From contig CAKZNV010000009.1 in NCBI GenBank assembly GCA_937132085.1, positions 1-52,607 of the forward strand: 52,607 nt of DNA. The letters run 5' to 3'. Below the pieces are notes generated by a model, which saw nothing but the letters and a program-made list of their open reading frames with translations, was not told the origin of the DNA and did not search any database. This document shows, piece after piece, positions 39,298 to 52,154 of this stretch. The stretch is from an uncultured Rubritalea sp. (lineage in GTDB: Bacteria; Verrucomicrobiota; Verrucomicrobiia; Verrucomicrobiales; Akkermansiaceae). Within the stretch, counting starts at the first letter, position 1; the number at the start of each line of letters is the position of its first letter. The position numbers were made by a program, and so were the translations under genes.

Positions 39298-39720
39298 CTA
39301 GCTACAGTCGTTGCAGGTGCCGAAGAATGCTAGTTCGTGGTAGAGGTTTTTGTAGCCGGTGGAGGTGGCTATTTCCTTCTCCAGCTGGTGGACGGGGCAG
39401 GGTGCGGTGATGGGGCGGATGTCGCCACAGTCGGTGCAGATGAGAAAATCTTGATGGCGTCCGGGGATGAGCAGAGTGAAGTAAGCTGCACGCTCATGCA
39501 GGCCGAGTCGGCGCACGATGCCTTTGTCAGAGAGCTTCTGCAGGAGGCGGAAGACTGTGGCTCTGTCGCAGAGAGCTTTGAGATTAGGGTGCTCAGCCAG
39601 CGCCGCGAGTGTCATAGGTGACGTGTTCTCTAGCAGGGTCGTGAGGACGGAACAGAGTGCCTTGGTGCGTCTGAGTCCTGCTTCCTTACATTGCTCTAAT
39701 ATATTACTGAGATGCTGCAT
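39298..39720 (-). CDS. Fur-family metal-dependent repressor
   Basis: The 140-residue DNA-binding protein has an N-terminal winged helix (R-A-T-V-F-R-L-L-Q-K-L, 53-63) and a C-terminal dimerisation/metal domain. Metal ligands: His75, His89 in R-H-Q-D-F-L-I-C, Cys95 and Cys98 (C-T-D-C), His128, then Cys136 and Cys139 (C-N-D-C) for the structural zinc. The recognition helix and both C-x-x-C sites fit Fur or Zur; the sequence does not settle which. The feoAB operator lies about 7 kb away, so this could be its regulator. It follows the Minf_1886-type gene on the same strand with 57 bp between. Confidence 0.87.
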   Translation of the reverse strand: MQHLSNILEQCKEAGLRRTKALCSVLTTLLENTSPMTLAALAEHPNLKALCDRATVFRLLQKLSDKGIVRRLGLHERAAYFTLLIPGRHQDFLICTDCGDIRPITAPCPVHQLEKEIATSTGYKNLYHELAFFGTCNDCS

Positions 39721-42246: not shown

Positions 42247-42281
42247 AAGCCCACTTTCTGTTTCAGGAAGTGGGCTTTTTT
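42247..42281 (+). terminator. Rho-independent terminator after the SPFH gene
   Basis: AAGCCCACTT (42247-42256) pairs with AAGTGGGCTT (42268-42277), extended inward by T-C/G-G pairs, and is followed by a run of T. It cleanly isolates the following biosynthetic operon, whose first start codon is 142 bp downstream. Confidence 0.92.
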
Positions 42282-42422: not shown

Positions 42423-43367
42423 ATGAAAGCACTTGTCAAATTTTGTAACAATTATCAATTAAAGTTAGTCTCTGACCCTACCCTAGAGTCACATGATGAT
42501 GTGCTAGTAAAGATTAAAACTTCTGCTATTTGTCGCACTGATCAATATGTCGCACAAGGTCTCATCGATTGTGAAGATAACAGAGTGTTAGGTCATGAGG
42601 CCAGCGGAACAGTCATTTCTATAGGTAATGAGGTCAATAGCATCTCTATCGATGATCAAGTGATCATCAATCCTATGAAGGCTTGCTACCGATGTGATGA
42701 TTGCTTGAAACAAGACTATCACCATTGCTCTAACATCCAGTTCATGGGGGTTGATTATGATGGGACATTTGCTGAGTATGTAGTCTGCCCTGCTAATCAA
42801 GTGTATCGGTTTTCGGATTTGAGCTTTGAACAAGCCGCCTATACCGAGCCTATCGCTGCTACTTTAGCCGTTGTGTATTCATCGATACATGATCACAAGG
42901 AAGCATCTATTGCGGTAGTTGGGTCTGGACGCATTGCTCAGCTAACTTTTCAGATCTTGGCTCGTTCAGGTTACACAAACGTCCAATTAATAGGTCTAGA
43001 AAACCTTCAAAAGCAAACTTCTGAGGGAGCAAAATTTGACTACGTTGTCGAATCTATTTCCACTCCTAACACTGCGACTGAAGACTTATTTAGCTGTATT
43101 CGATTACTCCGAACAGCTGGCACATTGATTCTTAAAAGCAGGAACCCACATCCCGTGCAGTTTCCTACTATGGAATTAATCAAGCGAAGAATTACTATAG
43201 AATCGGTTTATTATGCTCCCTTCGATGAGGCGATTCATTTTATTGAAAACAACCTCGACTTGATTGATTCACTCATCGGCAGATCTTATCCAATCGAAGA
43301 TCATGCACTAGCTTTTCATACCGCCAATCAATCCGAAGCAAACAAAACCTTTTTCATTTTCAAGTAA
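42423..43367 (+). CDS. Zinc-dependent alcohol dehydrogenase (MDR family), cluster gene 1
   Basis: The 314-residue oxidoreductase has the medium-chain fold. Catalytic zinc ligands: Cys37 in A-I-C-R-T-D and His58-Glu59 in G-H-E-A-S-G. Structural zinc: Cys88, Cys91, Cys94 and Cys102 in C-Y-R-C-D-D-C-L-K-Q-D-Y-H-H-C. The cofactor loop is V-V-G-S-G-R-I-A (165-172), degraded from the usual G-x-G-x-x-G; the second half is shorter than normal (314 against 340-350). It is first in the six-gene operon, 10 bp before the asparagine-synthase-type gene. It could interconvert the aldehyde released by the A-T-R enzyme and an alcohol, or act on a tailored substrate; this is inference. Confidence 0.88.
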   Translation: MKALVKFCNNYQLKLVSDPTLESHDDVLVKIKTSAICRTDQYVAQGLIDCEDNRVLGHEASGTVISIGNEVNSISIDDQVIINPMKACYRCDDCLKQDYHHCSNIQFMGVDYDGTFAEYVVCPANQVYRFSDLSFEQAAYTEPIAATLAVVYSSIHDHKEASIAVVGSGRIAQLTFQILARSGYTNVQLIGLENLQKQTSEGAKFDYVVESISTPNTATEDLFSCIRLLRTAGTLILKSRNPHPVQFPTMELIKRRITIESVYYAPFDEAIHFIENNLDLIDSLIGRSYPIEDHALAFHTANQSEANKTFFIFK

Positions 43368-43377
43368 TAAACAATCG

Positions 43378-45258
43378 ATGTGCGGAATCCTTACACAATT
43401 TGAAAAACAACAGGCATTGAATGATAGAAACATTAAGCTGTTTCTGGAATCTTTGAAACTGTTAAAGCATCGTGGACCTGATGCTACAGATTATGTTATT
43501 TCTAGTAACGAAACATACGCTCTAGGCCACACTCGATTAGCTCTTACTGGTAGAGAAAACGGAAGACAACCTATCTCAAATGAAACTGGTGAGATCTATG
43601 CTGTGGTGAATGGTGAATTCTACCAATATGAAACTATTAGAACCAATTTAGAGCAACAAGGTCATCGCTTCAAAACTGATTCTGATAGTGAAATTCTGGT
43701 TCATCTGTATGAGCAATATGGCATGCAGTTCACTGACTATTTAAATGGTGAATTTGCCTTTGTGCTAGCGGATCATCGTGCTGCAGAACCAGTCTTTATA
43801 GCTGGTCGCGATCGATTTGGTGTGAAACCTCTTCATTATACAGACTCTAGTAAACATCTTGTCATTGCTTCTGAGGCGAAAGCCATACTTCCCATTGCTC
43901 CAGACTGTCGAAAATGGGATACTGAAGCTCTACACCAAACTTTCACTCATCAGTATCTATCAACAAGTAAAAGCATTTTTTCTGGTGTCAAACAACTGCC
44001 TCCAGCGCATCTGCTTGTGCATGCTGAAGGGAAAACTGAACTTCTGGCGTATTGGGATTTCCCTACAGATCAGACCATGGCATCTAGAGCTGTTGAGCCC
44101 GATGAGTTATTGCATGACCTTCGCCGTAACGTATCTGATCGATTACATCAAGATGCAGCCTTTTCACTCAGTAGCGGTGTTGACTCTAGCAGTATCGTAG
44201 CTCTAGCGAGCGAGATTAGATCAGAGAATGTTCCTTGTTTCTCTATTAGTTTTGATTCAGATGATTACAATGAGGCTTCTATTATTCGCTCTACGGCCTC
44301 ACAGATCGGTGCTGACTTAAACATTGTTCCTGTTAGCAGAAATGATTTGTTAGAACACTTACCCACGGCTCTCTATTACTCAGAAGGATTTGCAATCAAT
44401 GGACAACTGGTGGGAAAATATCTGATGAATAAAGAAGTTCATCGAGCTGGCCACAAGGTTATCCTCTCTGGAGAAGGCGCTGATGAAGCATTTCTAGGGT
44501 ATGCTCATTTAGAGGCAGATTTTCAGGATCAGTCGCTCGATGCAATTGGTTCACACCCGTTGCAAGCAGGGCTGATGTTAGCAGATAGTGAATTTAGTAT
44601 TTCTAATGAATTACCTTCGTGGATGAATGCTTGGCCTAGTTTCTTACTTGCGAAGATGAGTTTTTGCGGTCAACTAAGGGGGCTATTGAAGGCTGAATTT
44701 CTACGTGAATATTCTGCACAAACTCTGGATAACACGCTAACTGAATTCCGCCGATATAATCCATATAGTAATAAAAAACCGGTGCTTAACAGTGCCCATC
44801 TTTGGTCACGAACAGCTCTTGCCAATTACATTCTGCACACTCTAGGAGATGGCACAGAAATGCCTCATTCCATTGAAGGACGTGTGCCGTTTCTAGATCA
44901 TCATTTAGTAGAAAAAGCATGGGCGATACCAACCCAGCAAAAGCTCAATAGCAAGCATTCAAAGGCTATCTTCAGAGATGCTGTGTCTAATATTCTACCA
45001 GAAGAAATAGCCTATCGTCCTAAGCACCCTCTAATTGCTCCTCCTATTTTAACAGACCCAGCTCTACATTGCCATACCCGTGATTTGATTCACAGTTCGA
45101 TGATGTCAGACGTGATGTTTATCGATCAGAAGAAGCTATCTCATTGGTTTAAAACTATGAGCCAAGCCTCTGAAAATCACCAACAAAGTGCCGATCCTAT
45201 ACTGATGACAATCCTTAGTAGTATGCATTTACAACACCAATTTAAACTAAGCTTATGA
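43378..45258 (+). CDS. Glutamine-hydrolysing asparagine-synthase-type amidotransferase, cluster gene 2
   Basis: The 626-residue enzyme has a glutaminase domain with the N-terminal nucleophile Cys2 (after Met removal) and K-H-R-G-P-D (29-34), V-N-G-E-F-Y (77-82), and a synthase domain with the ATP-pyrophosphatase loop S-L-S-S-G-V-D-S-S (263-271). G-E-G-A-D-E (about 366-371) and H-S-I-E-G-R-V-P-F-L-D near the end complete the fold. It transfers ammonia to an adenylated carboxylate to form an amide. True AsnB makes asparagine, but in clusters such enzymes also amidate other acids or form lactams, as in carbapenam synthetase. Given its neighbours I favour a tailoring role. It overlaps the methyltransferase gene by 4 bp. 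Confidence 0.9.
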   Translation: MCGILTQFEKQQALNDRNIKLFLESLKLLKHRGPDATDYVISSNETYALGHTRLALTGRENGRQPISNETGEIYAVVNGEFYQYETIRTNLEQQGHRFKTDSDSEILVHLYEQYGMQFTDYLNGEFAFVLADHRAAEPVFIAGRDRFGVKPLHYTDSSKHLVIASEAKAILPIAPDCRKWDTEALHQTFTHQYLSTSKSIFSGVKQLPPAHLLVHAEGKTELLAYWDFPTDQTMASRAVEPDELLHDLRRNVSDRLHQDAAFSLSSGVDSSSIVALASEIRSENVPCFSISFDSDDYNEASIIRSTASQIGADLNIVPVSRNDLLEHLPTALYYSEGFAINGQLVGKYLMNKEVHRAGHKVILSGEGADEAFLGYAHLEADFQDQSLDAIGSHPLQAGLMLADSEFSISNELPSWMNAWPSFLLAKMSFCGQLRGLLKAEFLREYSAQTLDNTLTEFRRYNPYSNKKPVLNSAHLWSRTALANYILHTLGDGTEMPHSIEGRVPFLDHHLVEKAWAIPTQQKLNSKHSKAIFRDAVSNILPEEIAYRPKHPLIAPPILTDPALHCHTRDLIHSSMMSDVMFIDQKKLSHWFKTMSQASENHQQSADPILMTILSSMHLQHQFKLSL

Positions 45259-46052
45259 AAGACTCTAACAGCATAAAAAGTAACACGAAGTCGGATTGGT
45301 GGACTACCTTTTACGATCAGAATCTGGCAGACATTTTACTAGATCCTGCTAGCGGAGAGGAAGTCCAGATGACCTGTAATTTTCTCACAGAAGTGCTATC
45401 CTTATCTCCAGGAGATACGATTTTTGATCAGTGCTGTGGCAATGGTAGATTAGCTCTCGAACTAGGTCTCAGAGATTTCTCTGTGATAGGCATAGATCAA
45501 GCAGACATCTACATCCAGCAAGCAACTACTGAGGCTACTAATCTAAAATCTGATTGTGTTTTTGAAACAGCAGATGCTTTCCAATACACAACTCCGACCC
45601 CTTGCCATGCAGCGATGAATTGGTGGACGAGTTTTGGCTATGCAGATGAGGACTTTCAAAACCTTAAAATGCTAAAAACAGCTTATGATTCGCTAATCAC
45701 TGGAGGGAAATTTGCACTAGATTACATGAACACTCCCAATCTGTATCGAACATTTCAACCTAGCATGATTACCAGAAGGCAACTTCCCAGCGGAGAACTC
45801 ATCTTGCTACGAGAGAGTTCTATAGATTCGATTAAGGACGTCTTGCACAAAAAATGGACCTACTACTTGCCTAATGACAACGGTGTGGTTTCCCATGATT
45901 CCTCCACTCGTCTCTACACCCCAGCTCAACTGGCTCAGCTCTTTTCTCAAGCAGGTTTTACAGATATTGAATTCTATGGAGACGTAGATCAGAGACCATT
46001 ATCACTACATAGTCCACGATGCATCGTAGTTGCAACTAAACCGCATTCTTAA
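45255..46052 (+). CDS. Class I SAM-dependent methyltransferase, cluster gene 3
   Basis: The 265-residue enzyme has the SAM-binding motif I F-D-Q-C-C-G-N-G-R-L-A (58-68) and an acidic end of strand 2, V-I-G-I-D-Q-A-D (77-84). The motif IV region reads M-N-W-W-T-S-F-G-Y, which lacks the N/D-P-P-Y of N-methyltransferases of bases, so an O- or N-methylation of a small molecule is more likely. The start codon sits inside the ATGA overlap with the amidotransferase gene, which signals translational coupling. No close family is recognised. Confidence 0.85.
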   Translation: MKDSNSIKSNTKSDWWTTFYDQNLADILLDPASGEEVQMTCNFLTEVLSLSPGDTIFDQCCGNGRLALELGLRDFSVIGIDQADIYIQQATTEATNLKSDCVFETADAFQYTTPTPCHAAMNWWTSFGYADEDFQNLKMLKTAYDSLITGGKFALDYMNTPNLYRTFQPSMITRRQLPSGELILLRESSIDSIKDVLHKKWTYYLPNDNGVVSHDSSTRLYTPAQLAQLFSQAGFTDIEFYGDVDQRPLSLHSPRCIVVATKPHS

Positions 46053-46070
46053 CCTAACAACATATCAATC

Positions 46071-46919
46071 ATGTTACCTACTGATAAACCATTTTTAAGC
46101 TCTATTCCTGGAAATAATAACGAGACACGAGACTCTATTTATCGTGGTGATATTTATCTTTCCGACTCTAACGATGCCACAACGAGCTTAGTAAAAGACG
46201 TCAAAGATCGTATCCAGAAAGAACTGGGCGTGGAGGACATTAGAAAAGCTCATCTAGAGCTCTCTGATGCGGAGTTTTTTGAACGTATGGGCAACCTTAG
46301 AAAACTGTTCTATCTTGATGAAAAGTATCACGATCATCTTAGAAACGTAATTGCGAGCTACGGATTTAATCCTAACAGAACGGCATTTGACCCTATCCGT
46401 ATTCGAGTTATTCTACCTGGAGGACACCGTAACCCAAAGGCAGCTCCCGTATATTTCCCTCATCGAGATACTTGGTATGCACACCCACAATCTCTGATCG
46501 TAGGTTGGATCCCTCTTCATGATCTATCCGCTAATGAGACATTTGAATTTTTCCCAGATTACTTCGATCAAGAGGTTCCTAACAATTCTGAAATTTTTGA
46601 CTACGCGGATTGGATCAAAGACGGCCCAGCTCTTAAAATAGGCTGGCAGAACAAAGATTCAGGTCTCTCTGCAGGTTACTCAAAAGCTAGTGCAAACCAT
46701 AATCCTGGCAGACGAATCCGTTTCTGCTGCGAGTCTGGAGAGGCTCTATTTTTCGCTGGATCACACTACCATCAAACTCTGGAACAAGATCTAGGAACTA
46801 TTCGCTATAGTCTAGACTTCAGACTAGTGAACCTAGATGACGTCAAGCTAGCAAAGGGATCACCTAATTCTGATAATCGATCTAAAGGAGACATTCTATC
46901 TGATTATATCCAGCCATAG
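46071..46919 (+). CDS. Fe(II)/2-oxoglutarate oxygenase-like protein, cluster gene 4
   Basis: The 282-residue product looks like a cupin-fold (jelly-roll) oxygenase. A facial-triad-like H-R-D is at 131-133 in F-P-H-R-D-T-W, and a distal His is at 232 or 234 in A-G-S-H-Y-H-Q-T. A likely 2-oxoglutarate-binding Arg follows at 245 or 251 in the last strand (IRYSLDFRLVNLDDV). It resembles phytanoyl-CoA-dioxygenase-like proteins, but no search was possible. It would hydroxylate, desaturate or N-demethylate the pathway intermediate. The start at 46071 is 18 bp after the methyltransferase stop, and the stop is 10 bp before the A-T-R gene. Confidence 0.65.
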   Translation: MLPTDKPFLSSIPGNNNETRDSIYRGDIYLSDSNDATTSLVKDVKDRIQKELGVEDIRKAHLELSDAEFFERMGNLRKLFYLDEKYHDHLRNVIASYGFNPNRTAFDPIRIRVILPGGHRNPKAAPVYFPHRDTWYAHPQSLIVGWIPLHDLSANETFEFFPDYFDQEVPNNSEIFDYADWIKDGPALKIGWQNKDSGLSAGYSKASANHNPGRRIRFCCESGEALFFAGSHYHQTLEQDLGTIRYSLDFRLVNLDDVKLAKGSPNSDNRSKGDILSDYIQP

Positions 46920-46929
46920 ATACCCAATA

Positions 46930-49713
46930 ATGCGTTCTTTACTCCATACGATTTGGCTACATTATCAACAAAGCCCTCAAGCTATTGTCCTCGAAGAATA
47001 CCGAGGTGAGTCCTATAGTTATGAAGATCTATGGCAGCGAGCATGCAGCTACTCTCATGACCTAACAGCATTGCCTACAAATGAAGAGTCTGAAGACCAT
47101 GTAGCTATTTTATTACCGAAGGGAATCGAATTCATCGCAGCTCTTTTAGGTATCTGGCTAGCTAAAAAAACAGCCGTAGTTATAGATCCTCAATGGCCAA
47201 ATCAGCGTATCAAAAATATCATTAAGGAAGTAGAACCTGAGCACATCATCAAAGCCGAGCCTACTTCTATCCGAGTAGAAAACATAGTCCCTCCACCTAA
47301 CCTAGATCTTCATTCTCCAGCCTATATCATTTATAGTTCAGGCTCAAGTGGTCAACCAAAGGGCGTCATCGTGCCTCATGCTGGACTTATGGATGTGTTC
47401 AGAGACCAAATTGCATTATTTGATCTGCACCCTAACAGCAAGTCATTCTGGGTTCATGGAATCGCCTTTGACGCCTCTATCTCAGATATCGGAACTGTTC
47501 TAGTAGCAGGAGCAACTCTCTGCATTGATAAGTGTTTTACCATTAAATCCAGCAAGCATTTTCTTGAACAGGTCACCGAACTACATATCACACATATCGA
47601 TATCCCCCCGTCATTGTTGTGCGTTCTTGATTCTAGTAATGCTCCAGAGTGTCTAGAAACATTGATCATAGGCGGCGAAGTCACCCCGATACCTATCATC
47701 CGTGAATGGGCGAAAAAGCTACGACTCATCAATGTATATGGCCCCACAGAGGCTACTATCTGCACTAGCATGATACGCTGTGATGAATCTTGGAATAGCT
47801 CAGATATTGGTCTACCTCTTAACAAGGTCAGCTATGATATTATCGATCCATTTACTCAGCAATCGGCTACGCAAGGAGAGCTTTATATCTCTGGAGATCA
47901 TGTGGCTTTAGCTTATCTAAAGCAACCTCAACTCACTAAAGATAAGTTCTCTATCAGAGGTGGAAAAAGAGTCTTTAAGACAGGTGACTTAGTGCGAAGA
48001 AAAGACAGTGGTTCATTTGAATATTTGGGTAGAATCGATCGCCAAATCAAGATTAGCGGCAAGCTATTTTGTCCTGAGGAAGTCGAAGCTAACTTAAGAA
48101 GCATGGAAGGTGTCGATGAAGTCTTTATCGCTCAGACTAATAACCTAACCGCTTGGGTTATTAGTAAATCATCTTCAGATGAGCTTAGACAGTATTTATC
48201 GGAATCTCTCCCTCAATGGATGATCCCCACAGAATGGATTTCGCTCACTAGTTTTCCTAAATTAAGTAATGGCAAATTAGACATCACTCGCTTAACGCAA
48301 TTAAAGGACAAGCAAACATCGCAGCGTGAGGTGAATCCTCAATCACTTGAAAACCGTCTCACGCAATTATGCAGAAATATTCTTGGGCATCAGGATTTTT
48401 CCAGCAAGGATGACTTTTTCCTCAATGGAGGAGATTCTTTATCTGCAATCCATTTTCTACTCAAAGCTGAGCAGCAAGGAATCCCCCTCACCCCAGATTC
48501 GATTCATCAATACAGAAGTCCTAAGACAATAGCTGCTCACATAGAAACAAGCACCAGCTACGGGACTAGTAATAGTAAGCTGAGCCAACGCGTTTTAGCT
48601 CTTTACGAGTCACTTTCAAAACAGGGTTATTCTGGATCAAGCTTTGCTCCCTCACACTCACCTGAGGCATACATTATTACAGGATCTACAGGCTTCCTCG
48701 GCAGCGCTATTATTGGAAACCTACTTTCTCAAACTGTGCTTCCTATCATCTGTTTAGTCCGTGGAGATCTTGCAGAAAAACATTCGTTTCTTCTCACCAA
48801 ACTGGAACATCACGGTTTCAATATTACCGAAAAACAAAGCTCTAGAATTGAATTTATTCAGGCTGATGTTACAGAAAAACGATTTGGACTAGCTCTTCAA
48901 GACTGGGAGAAACTCTGTTCGATTTCTGCAGATATAATTCACTGTGCGGCTGAAATGAATATTCTTCAACCCTATGCAGAACTAGAAAAAACCAACATCC
49001 AAGGAGCTTTAGAAATCATTAAATTAGCTCTCACCTCTCAGTATAAACGGATCATCTACGCCTCAACCCTATCAGTTTTTGTCGATAGCTACCCTACTCC
49101 AGCTATTTGCATAGAATCTGACTCATTGAGTAAAGAAGAACGCACAATCTACGGAGGCTATGCACAAACTAAATGGGTGGCAGATCAACTACTCCAAACC
49201 TATTTTCCAGATCAAACGATCAACTTGAGGCTTGGTCTCCTAACACCAAACTCAGCCACAGGCTATGCTGCAGATAATGATTGGTTTCAATGGTTAATCG
49301 CATCGCTACAAAACGGACAGTCTGAATTCAATATACAAGATGATGAATCGATGGATTTCACTCCAGTCGATTTTGCCGCTAAGGCAATAGCACAGATAAT
49401 GCTATCAGGTGACACAGGTAAAACCTATCACATCGCAAATTCTGAATCTTTACGTTTTTCCCAGATCAATTCAGCCATCAAAGTGTCTCAGAGTAATTCA
49501 TCAAATGACATATCGCACCATGGGTCATTACTTATTGATGCCGCCAACAGCTCACATGGTAGACATCATTTTTCTGTAAATTTATTTAAAACTACTCACA
49601 CTAACTTCTGCACTAAGAACACTGATTTTATCCTTACTGGGAGCAACATTCACTCACCTTCTCTCACAGATGAATTTCTGAAAACTTACTTATCTAAACT
49701 CTATACCCTATGA
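46930..49713 (+). CDS. Stand-alone NRPS-like A-T-R reductase, cluster gene 5
   Basis: The 927-residue enzyme has three domains and no condensation or thioesterase domain. Adenylation (about 1-460): A3 Y-S-S-G-S-S-G-Q-P-K-G (135-145), A4 F-D-A-S-I-S (180-185), A5 V-Y-G-P-T-E (269-274), A7 T-G-D-L (351-354), A8 G-R-I-D-R-Q-I-K (367-374) and Lys449 in S-N-G-K. Carrier protein: Ser503 in L-N-G-G-D-S-L (498-504), the phosphopantetheine site. Reductase (about 580-927): SDR fold with G-S-T-G-F-L-G (585-591) and Y744-x-x-x-K748. It would adenylate one acid, load it as thioester and release it reductively as an aldehyde (or alcohol). The C-terminal part of the reductase looks less conserved. Confidence 0.92.
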   Translation: MRSLLHTIWLHYQQSPQAIVLEEYRGESYSYEDLWQRACSYSHDLTALPTNEESEDHVAILLPKGIEFIAALLGIWLAKKTAVVIDPQWPNQRIKNIIKEVEPEHIIKAEPTSIRVENIVPPPNLDLHSPAYIIYSSGSSGQPKGVIVPHAGLMDVFRDQIALFDLHPNSKSFWVHGIAFDASISDIGTVLVAGATLCIDKCFTIKSSKHFLEQVTELHITHIDIPPSLLCVLDSSNAPECLETLIIGGEVTPIPIIREWAKKLRLINVYGPTEATICTSMIRCDESWNSSDIGLPLNKVSYDIIDPFTQQSATQGELYISGDHVALAYLKQPQLTKDKFSIRGGKRVFKTGDLVRRKDSGSFEYLGRIDRQIKISGKLFCPEEVEANLRSMEGVDEVFIAQTNNLTAWVISKSSSDELRQYLSESLPQWMIPTEWISLTSFPKLSNGKLDITRLTQLKDKQTSQREVNPQSLENRLTQLCRNILGHQDFSSKDDFFLNGGDSLSAIHFLLKAEQQGIPLTPDSIHQYRSPKTIAAHIETSTSYGTSNSKLSQRVLALYESLSKQGYSGSSFAPSHSPEAYIITGSTGFLGSAIIGNLLSQTVLPIICLVRGDLAEKHSFLLTKLEHHGFNITEKQSSRIEFIQADVTEKRFGLALQDWEKLCSISADIIHCAAEMNILQPYAELEKTNIQGALEIIKLALTSQYKRIIYASTLSVFVDSYPTPAICIESDSLSKEERTIYGGYAQTKWVADQLLQTYFPDQTINLRLGLLTPNSATGYAADNDWFQWLIASLQNGQSEFNIQDDESMDFTPVDFAAKAIAQIMLSGDTGKTYHIANSESLRFSQINSAIKVSQSNSSNDISHHGSLLIDAANSSHGRHHFSVNLFKTTHTNFCTKNTDFILTGSNIHSPSLTDEFLKTYLSKLYTL

Positions 49714-50699
49714 GCAAATCAACCAAATCAGCCACTCATGGCATGTTATTAGGAAAATTTCTACCTCCCCATTTAGGTCACGTTTATCTAGCAGACTTTG
49801 CGAGGCATTACGTTGACCATCTGACTATCATAGTAGGGACATTATCGAATGAGCCAATAGATGGAGAGCTTCGGTATCAATGGATGAAGGAGCTTTGCCC
49901 TCACGCCAATGTCGTTCATCTCAAGAAAGACCTACCTCAGGATCCTAGTGAACACCCAGACTTCTGGAATATCTGGCGAACTGAGCTAGAAGCCATTTTA
50001 CCTAATACTCCTGATGTAGTATTCGCCTCTGAATCCTACGGTCACCGACTAGCTGAAGAACTTGGAGCAAAATTTATTCCCGTAGATCCACAAAGAGAAT
50101 CAAGGGCTGTAAGTGGAACGACGATTCGAGATAACCCCTATGAAAACTGGAATCTCATCCCCAACATTGTGAAACCTTACTATCTAAAACGAGTCTGTGT
50201 TTTTGGCCCAGAATCTACTGGTAAAAGCACCCTTACCGCTAACCTTGCCAAGCATTTCAACACAATAGGAGTAAAAGAATATGCTAGAACTTATCTTGAA
50301 GAACTCGGCACAGAACTGCAACAAGAACAGCTCGTAGAGATAGCCAGAGGACAACTATCCAGCGAGACCGCACTAACTCCCTACTCTAACAAATTACTCA
50401 TTGCCGACACGGATCTCCTTCTCACCACAGTCTGGAGCCAATTTCTCTACGGCTCATGTGATCCTTGGATTACAGAAGAAGCTCAGAACCATGACTACGA
50501 TCTCTACTTACTCACTGACGTCGATGTTCCTTGGGTAAAAGACGATGTTAGATATCTTCCCAATGATCGAGAAAACTTCCTAGACCTATGCGAACAAACA
50601 TTGATAGAGAACAACAGAAACTACATCAAGCTCTCAGGGAGTTGGGAAGACAGAACCCAAAAAGCAATTGAAGCGGTAGCTCAACTTATTAGTATATAG
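49710..50699 (+). CDS. nadR: NadR-like bifunctional NMN adenylyltransferase/ribosylnicotinamide kinase, cluster gene 6
   Basis: The 329-residue protein has an N-terminal nucleotidylyltransferase domain with the H-x-G-H motif (His21-Leu-Gly-His24 after G-K-F-L-P-P) and S-G-T-T-I-R (135-140). A C-terminal kinase domain has a P-loop in F-G-P-E-S-T-G-K-S-T (165-174), as in NadR. The N-terminal DNA-binding domain of enteric NadR is missing. NadR makes NAD from nicotinamide riboside. The start codon overlaps the A-T-R stop by 4 bp (ATGA), so it belongs to the operon. It could supply NAD(P)H for the reductases or act on a pyridine- or nucleotide-bearing product; both are inference. Confidence 0.9.
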   Translation: MSKSTKSATHGMLLGKFLPPHLGHVYLADFARHYVDHLTIIVGTLSNEPIDGELRYQWMKELCPHANVVHLKKDLPQDPSEHPDFWNIWRTELEAILPNTPDVVFASESYGHRLAEELGAKFIPVDPQRESRAVSGTTIRDNPYENWNLIPNIVKPYYLKRVCVFGPESTGKSTLTANLAKHFNTIGVKEYARTYLEELGTELQQEQLVEIARGQLSSETALTPYSNKLLIADTDLLLTTVWSQFLYGSCDPWITEEAQNHDYDLYLLTDVDVPWVKDDVRYLPNDRENFLDLCEQTLIENNRNYIKLSGSWEDRTQKAIEAVAQLISI

Positions 50700-50774: not shown

Positions 50775-52154
50775 TTAAAATTGAGCAAGTTGCTCGGGGA
50801 ATGGGCATTGTGTGCAGTCTGAGGTGTCGGCTAGGCAGAAGTCTTGGTAGATCTGGAGCAGGGCTTGGTGGTGCCAAGATTTCTTGAGAAATTGTTTGGC
50901 CTCCGGTCTGTCTCCGAAGAGTCGGAAGTGTGCCCGCTTTACTTTCTCGTTCACAGCAGGGGCTGGGAATGATTGGTAGGTTTGCCAGGTGATGTCATTT
51001 CTCTCGGTGATCTGCATTGGGAGGAGGTGATTGATGATGAGATCGTGAATGCGGTCTTTACCGATGAGAGCGAGGCGCTTCTCGGAGGTCTTAGAAGTGA
51101 GGGTGTAGTGGTGCGACCAGAAGTCGTCTTCTAGGCTAGTGAGCCATTCTGTTAGGTTGCTCGGTTGAGTTGTTAGAGAGCGGAATTTCTGCCAATGTTG
51201 AGCGATGGCCGCTAGTGTGGCAAGTCTGCGCTGTGGGTGGTTGATAGGGCGGTTTCCATGCAGCGTCCAATTTATAGCACGTGAGGGATCTAGCTCATAG
51301 ATAGTGCGTTCTTGCCACCATGTGTCCCAGAGGTTTTCTAGCCACTGCTGAGACTCGATGGGAGCCTTCTGGTGGATGTCTGGGTGGAGAAATCCAGCGG
51401 TGCCGAAGATGATGGCTTGGAGCCTGTCAGGTTCATGCTGGAGCTTGGAAAGCTGTGTGATGGGGAGCCTCTGAGCAATGAGGCTCATGGAGAGTTTGTT
51501 AGGTCTGTAGCCGAGAGTTTCTGCGACTGCTGTCCAGAGTGCTTGGTCGCTGCCGTGACTGTCTCGAATGGCATGGAGTCGTCTAGCCTTGAGCTGACAA
51601 CGGTGTCTAGCAGCTTGCTCTAACAGTTCTACGACACGGGTGGAGGGAGTGTTAGCAAGAGGTTTAAAGCAACGTCCTATGTGATAGGGGGCAGAGGCGT
51701 AGAGAGGAGCTTGCAAGGTGGTCTGGATCACTGTGGTGGGGATGACTACTTTAGGGACTTCGGAGTGGTCTTCAGTGCGGGTGAAATGATTGTGAGCAGA
51801 GGGCTCGAATACGACATGCAGGATAGTGCCGTTGAATGCAGGATTGGTATCGTGGCCGTGGCTTTCCCAGTCCGATGGTCTGGTGTCTATTTCTAGTGGA
51901 CCAGAGACAGATTTACCATTGATGGAGACTGAGGCATGGAGGAAATCTGGTCCTGCGCTACGGTTCCAGAATCCGAATTGATCTATATGAACGGTCTTTC
52001 CACATGTGGTTTGAAAGTCTCTACCAAACTGTCCGTTGAACCAAATAGACTGGAGTTCTAACTCATCAGGTAGGTCTAGCTGATGGGGTGAGGACTCATG
52101 CAGCAGATTCAGCGGTCTAAGCGAATCTAGTAGTGAGGCGTAAGTCTGCTGCAT
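50775..52154 (-). CDS. DUF2851 family protein
   Basis: The 459-residue product fits the DUF2851 family, common in Bacteroidetes and Verrucomicrobia: L-E-L-Q-S-I-W-F-N-G (32-41), F-G-F-W-N-R-S-A-G-P-D-F-L-H-A (60-74), G-P-L-E-I-D-T-R-P-S-D-W-E-S-H-G-H-D-T-N (85-104) and I-L-H-V-V-F-E-P, with a C-terminal Cys cluster in S-D-C-T-Q-C-P-F. The early D/E-rich segment resembles a PD-(D/E)XK-like nuclease core, but I cannot show that. Function unknown. It ends 75 bp after the cluster, convergent with nadR, and starts 15 bp after the upstream gene on the same strand. Confidence 0.82.
   Translation of the reverse strand: MQQTYASLLDSLRPLNLLHESSPHQLDLPDELELQSIWFNGQFGRDFQTTCGKTVHIDQFGFWNRSAGPDFLHASVSINGKSVSGPLEIDTRPSDWESHGHDTNPAFNGTILHVVFEPSAHNHFTRTEDHSEVPKVVIPTTVIQTTLQAPLYASAPYHIGRCFKPLANTPSTRVVELLEQAARHRCQLKARRLHAIRDSHGSDQALWTAVAETLGYRPNKLSMSLIAQRLPITQLSKLQHEPDRLQAIIFGTAGFLHPDIHQKAPIESQQWLENLWDTWWQERTIYELDPSRAINWTLHGNRPINHPQRRLATLAAIAQHWQKFRSLTTQPSNLTEWLTSLEDDFWSHHYTLTSKTSEKRLALIGKDRIHDLIINHLLPMQITERNDITWQTYQSFPAPAVNEKVKRAHFRLFGDRPEAKQFLKKSWHHQALLQIYQDFCLADTSDCTQCPFPEQLAQF

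Follow-up and report, generated by a model that had tools for sequence, protein, structure and literature searches.

The six genes at positions 42,423-50,699 of the window (the whole stretch of 52,607 nt that was analysed) appear, from their conservation and shared divergence, to constitute a self-contained, horizontally spread biosynthetic cassette that is inherited as a unit, and it is very likely that the NadR gene belongs to this conserved cassette. We class the cassette as a minimal reductive nonribosomal peptide synthetase (NRPS) system whose NadR component is unusual; the product of the cassette could represent a new class. In the literature searched, we found no description of a reductive NRPS enzyme joined to an NAD-forming enzyme.

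Operon structure

All six open reading frames (ORFs) are located on the plus strand according to the ORF listing, and their protein families were assigned with Pfam and NCBIfam. The first gene encodes an MDR-type zinc dehydrogenase (ADH, 42,423-43,367, 314 aa; ADH_N) and is followed after a 10-bp gap by that of a glutamine-dependent AsnB-type amidotransferase (AsnB, 43,378-45,258, 626 aa; GATase_7 and Asn_synthase). The gene of a class I SAM methyltransferase (MT, 45,255-46,052, 265 aa; Methyltransf domain) overlaps the latter by 4 bp and is separated by 18 bp from that of a putative PhyH-type Fe(II)/2OG oxygenase (OXY, 46,071-46,919, 282 aa). Another 10-bp gap precedes the adenylation-thiolation-reductase gene (A-T-R, 46,930-49,713, 927 aa; AMP-binding, PP-binding and NAD_binding_4), which overlaps by 4 bp with the gene of NadR, an NMN adenylyltransferase (NMNAT) and ribosylnicotinamide kinase (RNK; 49,710-50,699, 329 aa; NMNAT and AAA_28). 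An intrinsic terminator on the plus strand (42,247-42,277), consisting of a 14-bp stem and a T-run, marks the boundary to the upstream stomatin-like gene. The tight operon behind a terminator that had been read from the sequence in the initial annotation was recovered in full; of its gene names, five agreed with Pfam/NCBIfam, and the oxygenase was confirmed by its motif and an AF2 model instead. Downstream, a DUF2851 gene (50,775-52,154, minus strand) is convergent with NadR and lies outside the operon. A FUR-family regulator gene (39,298-39,720, minus strand) is found upstream of the NfeD-like and stomatin-like genes, with no sign of control over the cassette.

Distribution and joint inheritance

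Scanning GTDB contigs yielded 19 loci; flanks were fetched and the genes mapped by tblastn. ADH, AsnB, MT, OXY, A-T-R and NadR occur together at 21 loci, namely the window and L009, L011, L013, L014, L016, L019, L020, L021, L023, L024, L025, L030, L081, L083, L084, L087, L089, L096, L097 and L100. Three loci (L092, L093, L110) contain five genes and lack MT only, three others (L086, L094, L099) have partial sets, and several are broken off at contig ends, including that of a second Legionella bin (L018). One clade of close relatives (L022, L080, L082) shows no NadR motif in the 14-16 kb covered per locus. The commonest gene order is that of the window; some genes are divergent in L011, L013 and L019, OXY comes first in L020, and L024, L030 and L084 have other orders. 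Where OXY was found alone (L095, L101-L109), it is a paralogue in a different context, and these loci do not enter the counts.

The hosts belong to the Verrucomicrobiota, Pseudomonadota (including a Legionella MAG), Myxococcota, Planctomycetota and Cyanobacteriota (one Prochloron bin); most are metagenome bins, and mis-binning could account for a lone odd host like Prochloron. Six genes kept together at 21 loci in several phyla are more than chance linkage. Protein distances correlate for all 15 gene pairs (r 0.33-0.91; Mantel test, with no more than 4 of 1000 permutations reaching the observed value), as expected of genes moving together. OXY itself is rare, with matches in 2/241 genomes of Verrucomicrobiota, 2/369 of Gammaproteobacteria, 8/246 of Planctomycetota, 2/240 of Alphaproteobacteria and 28/331 of Myxococcota, counts that include some paralogues and come from samples containing the seed genomes. 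The proposal of a single biosynthetic unit around a stand-alone A-T-R enzyme is supported by this conservation, and the orthologues are linked rather than scattered singly. In the initial annotation, a conserved block in other Verrucomicrobia had been named as a sign of novelty; conserved it is, but not as a verrucomicrobial trait, since it occurs across several phyla.

At one of the partial loci, MT and OXY stand alone (L099:8698-10286), downstream of two TldD/PmbA-like genes identified by eye. No phage record contained OXY. Plasmids yielded only distant OXY relatives (22-29% identity) and, among the best matches listed, generic A-T-R matches of 26-29% identity, so a plasmid-borne cassette was discarded. 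An anti-phage defence system was likewise dismissed, PADLOC giving only a weak generic methyltransferase match (mad2).

The A-T-R enzyme and its substrate

A-T-R enzymes release aldehydes or alcohols, and makers of amino aldehydes are known among them. The A-T-R enzyme of the window has the A-domain code DASDIGVICK, the T-domain serine Ser503 and the reductase pair Tyr744/Lys748. S503 and Y744 are found in 33 of 34 alignment rows (the remaining row being a gap) and K748 in 32. D235 is present in every row except one damaged sequence, which predicts an alpha-amino acid activated via its alpha-carboxylate. Intact A domains of the cassettes conform to DASD-[IVLG]-G-[VCILA]-[VIL]-CK and mostly to DASD[IV]GV[VI]CK (GrsA numbering); a V-to-C change in the pocket is shared by L022, L080 and L082. 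One pocket code across the intact A domains makes a single amino-acid substrate likely; the starting amino acid, released by reduction, would probably be identical in all cassettes. Naming this amino acid from the code was abandoned: the codes for Gln/Glu, Lys and Tyr fit about equally well. A text search of the literature for DASD[IV]GV[VI]CK retrieved no paper.

In its domains for AMP binding, carrier function and NAD(P)-dependent reduction, the last with YxxxK, the enzyme resembles other stand-alone A-T-R systems such as the A-T-R region of MxcG-type enzymes (myxochelin) and Lys2-type reductases, whereas the partner genes differ. One pocket and few genes in several phyla point to what is probably a single molecule whose one function is of use to hosts of very different kinds.

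Tailoring enzymes

No Pfam model covers the OXY family: no match was obtained at E <= 0.001, and neither NCBIfam nor PDB sequences gave one. Its AF2 model (pLDDT 88) superposes on PtlH (227 residues, rmsd 3.5, Z 15.9), and the Foldseek matches listed for the model are all PhyH-type Fe/2OG oxygenases. H131xD133...H234...R245xS247, invariant in 21 aligned sequences, corresponds to the iron and 2OG sites. Judging from model and motif, OXY is predicted to be a PhyH-type Fe/2OG oxygenase with a DSBH fold, a class of enzymes that hydroxylate. It shares fold and HxD...H...RxS with PtlH, KanJ and EvdO2 but is unlike them in sequence, with 7-16% identity to the listed structures. Two distant OXY paralogues (30-32%; L095:9887-10558 and L103:9500-10339) are located near genes that by eye resemble glucose-1-phosphate cytidylyltransferase, a hint that this branch may act on sugars.

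Fold neighbours of the MT model (AF2, pLDDT 92) are CypM, YunM, CcbJ, TylM1, DesVI and glycine N-methyltransferases, together with some C-methyltransferases and one thiol methyltransferase. As most of them are amine N-methyltransferases, N-methylation is favoured without being proven, and MT is probably an amine N-methyltransferase. Its step would be optional, given the three cassettes without MT.

AsnB enzymes with Cys2 make an amide from glutamine. The cassette AsnB has this nucleophile (in 28 of the 29 rows with a residue there) and the PP-loop S-[GS]-G-x-D-S, whose S265, G267, D269 and S270 are present in 30/30 rows. With its glutaminase Cys2 and synthetase domain it is like the AsnB-type amidotransferases of biosynthetic clusters, for example the hydroxyamidotransferase 7ylz, from which it differs by a motif KHPxxAPP.

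ADH is, by its residues, a diverged MDR enzyme that appears to have kept the catalytic zinc ligands and altered its nucleotide loop. The ligands C37/H58/E59/E142 are invariant, as are R170 and R240. The loop reads G-x-[GN]-R-I-A, with an invariant Arg and with the second Gly of GxGxxG in 17/28 sequences, and the structural zinc lobe is lost in about one third of the members. Zinc enzymes of the MDR type convert carbonyls into alcohols and back.

NadR as a member of the cassette

We calculated a tree from the cassette NadRs, those of solved structure and eight others that lie outside the cassette. Those of the cassettes group apart from the salvage NadRs, the outside set forming one side of a branch with SH-aLRT 99. 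At the base of the cassette group branch the NadR of L094 and a solitary one (L126:9690-10652), which shares its contig with an NrtR and whose 11.9-kb stretch carries none of the remaining five genes. A loop QxPxEHPxFWxxW is common to the cassette NadRs and was not seen in the other NadRs compared. In L030 (3325-7254), A-T-R and NadR are fused in one ORF of 1309 aa. In L110 (11043-17471), a cassette without MT, NadR is split, with the kinase half following A-T-R and the NMNAT half at the opposite end of the operon. Clade, fusion and split argue well for NadR as an integral component of the cassette; the chemistry proposed in the initial annotation, which had left NadR out, falls short on this point. 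They also bear on the idea of an ordinary minimal NRPS-like cluster, making a pyrazine or an amino alcohol, that merely picked up NadR from a neighbouring NAD-salvage operon. Such a passenger would be in line with the known amino-aldehyde-forming A-T-R enzymes and with the NAD-salvage genes beside some cassettes, but it is very improbable for a NadR that travels with the cassette across phyla in a clade of its own, fused in one locus and split in another.

Like the NadRs of NAD salvage, those of the cassettes have both domains and their catalytic motifs, and show full-length homology to 1lw7 and 8x7f and homology to most of 9x6f; unlike them, they form a separate clade, have their own loop, no adjoining PnuC, and fused or split forms in other cassettes. 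The window NadR scores below the TIGR01526 equivalog-domain cut-off (277.2 versus 341.15 bits), as do non-cassette NadRs of the same phylum. Outside the cassette, full-length NadRs are rare: they were found in 12/195 genomes of Verrucomicrobiota and 4/114 of Gammaproteobacteria, and some of these are cassette copies. A role of NadR in transcriptional regulation was rejected, as Pfam/NCBIfam detect no N-terminal HTH domain. Nicotinamide-contact residues are not named in the passages retrieved from the Lactococcus NadR paper, and no claim is built on them here.

The genome of the window (98.7% complete) encodes a NadD above the cut-off and gave no match to PnuC, and no PnuC-like gene was seen by eye at the cassette loci. 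With NadD in the host, NadR would not be needed for basal NAD, and without a detectable PnuC there is no evident riboside import. Still, the cassette NadRs keep the NMNAT and RNK catalytic motifs GKFLPPHxGH, SGTxIR, GPESTGKST and DTD, so plain turnover of nicotinamide riboside (NR) and NMN is conceivable. The other five enzymes could then make an amino-aldehyde-type metabolite, with NadR boosting nicotinamide nucleotides for the reductase and ADH, or serving, as an insensitive copy, to protect the producer against a product that interferes with NAD synthesis. NAD-salvage genes adjoining several cassettes, the contig shared by NrtR and the solitary NadR close to the cassette clade, and the one clade without NadR at the locus would all agree with such a supply or protection role. 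Nevertheless we consider it doubtful, since the fusion with A-T-R and the co-divergence with A-T-R, AsnB and MT are easier to reconcile with a step of the pathway than with a copy kept for housekeeping or resistance, and since NadD is present in the host and PnuC was not detected.

Proposed pathway

As the cassette includes an NAD-making enzyme, its product is probably a metabolite linked to a nucleotide or to NAD. In our scheme, A-T-R would activate one amino acid via the alpha-carboxylate and set it free by reduction as an amino aldehyde (or alcohol), and ADH would interconvert aldehyde or ketone and alcohol. AsnB would add a primary amide with glutamine as donor, OXY would hydroxylate, and MT would probably N-methylate in an optional step. 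NadR would then act on the pathway product or its riboside, the kinase domain phosphorylating a hydroxyl and the NMNAT domain transferring AMP to give an ADP-linked, NAD-like molecule. We infer this last step because NadR is fused to A-T-R in one cassette and split in two in another, has a clade of its own and answers no evident housekeeping need. The order suggested in the initial annotation, with acid activation and reduction to an aldehyde and with amidation, methylation and oxidation as tailoring, is a possible one. Taken as a whole, the route from an amino acid via a tailored amino aldehyde or alcohol to an ADP-linked molecule made by NadR is tentative and, on balance, rather more probably wrong in some part than right throughout. 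Against it stand the intact NadR motifs that would permit plain NR/NMN turnover, the clade without NadR motif (L022, L080, L082), the absence of a ribosyl donor enzyme from the cassette, and the restriction of ADP-ribose neighbours to a minority of loci, such genes being found with ordinary NadRs too. A second, mobile pathway leading from an amino acid to a new NAD-like or ADP-linked dinucleotide, be it a nucleotide-activated amino aldehyde/alcohol or a nicotinamide mimic, with NadR as finishing kinase and adenylyltransferase, is possible but uncertain.

The whole operon matched no characterised pathway in the open-access literature, and neither its gene set, nor its pocket code, nor a NadR in a biosynthetic cluster was found described there. 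If the product is indeed nucleotide-linked, it would belong to a new class of intracellular metabolite, encoded by a compact set of genes amenable to laboratory expression.

Neighbouring genes and relation to NAD metabolism

Genes of NAD and ADP-ribose metabolism adjoin some of the cassettes. NADAR lies beside or inside L014 and L083, with a macro domain also in L014; ADP-ribosylglycohydrolase is encoded in L016 and L030, and NrtR in L016. In L030 the ADP-ribosylglycohydrolase gene and one for nicotinate phosphoribosyltransferase (NAPRTase) are found downstream of the A-T-R-NadR fusion; the assignment as nicotinate phosphoribosyltransferase of the gene upstream of the L024 cassette was unsupported by Pfam. 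We did not retain the ADP-ribose genes as cassette parts: most loci lack them, and the operons of ordinary salvage-type NadRs (L128, L130, L132, L134) carry the same kinds of genes, for which reason such neighbours give a hint of NAD chemistry only.

They would also fit a role of NadR on its usual substrates, NR or NMN, with NAD or NMN as a structural part of the product. NAD is a known natural-product precursor, as in altemicidin biosynthesis (PMC11610977), and the NMNAT loop of the cassette NadRs retains a Trp that is also present in the solved gamma-proteobacterial NadRs. However, Pfam/NCBIfam identify none of the six proteins as a PLP enzyme of the altemicidin kind, and the cassette has no conserved NAD-cleaving gene, so that NAD as a building block is unlikely. 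The likeness to the altemicidin/SB-203208 pathway, a natural-product route tied to NAD (PMC11610977), is thematic only.

No recurring transporter or exporter, regulator or resistance gene was seen beside the cassettes when the loci were read by eye. With no conserved exporter or regulator adjoining, the product may act inside the cell. The OXY match L040, from the Legionella genome that contains the cassette L020, has one in-frame TAA, for which decay or a start-site effect is possible. In both Legionella cassettes NadR is followed by a protein (L018:7837-8394 and L020:16550-17365), that of L020 having no Pfam family above cut-off; the two are 68% alike.
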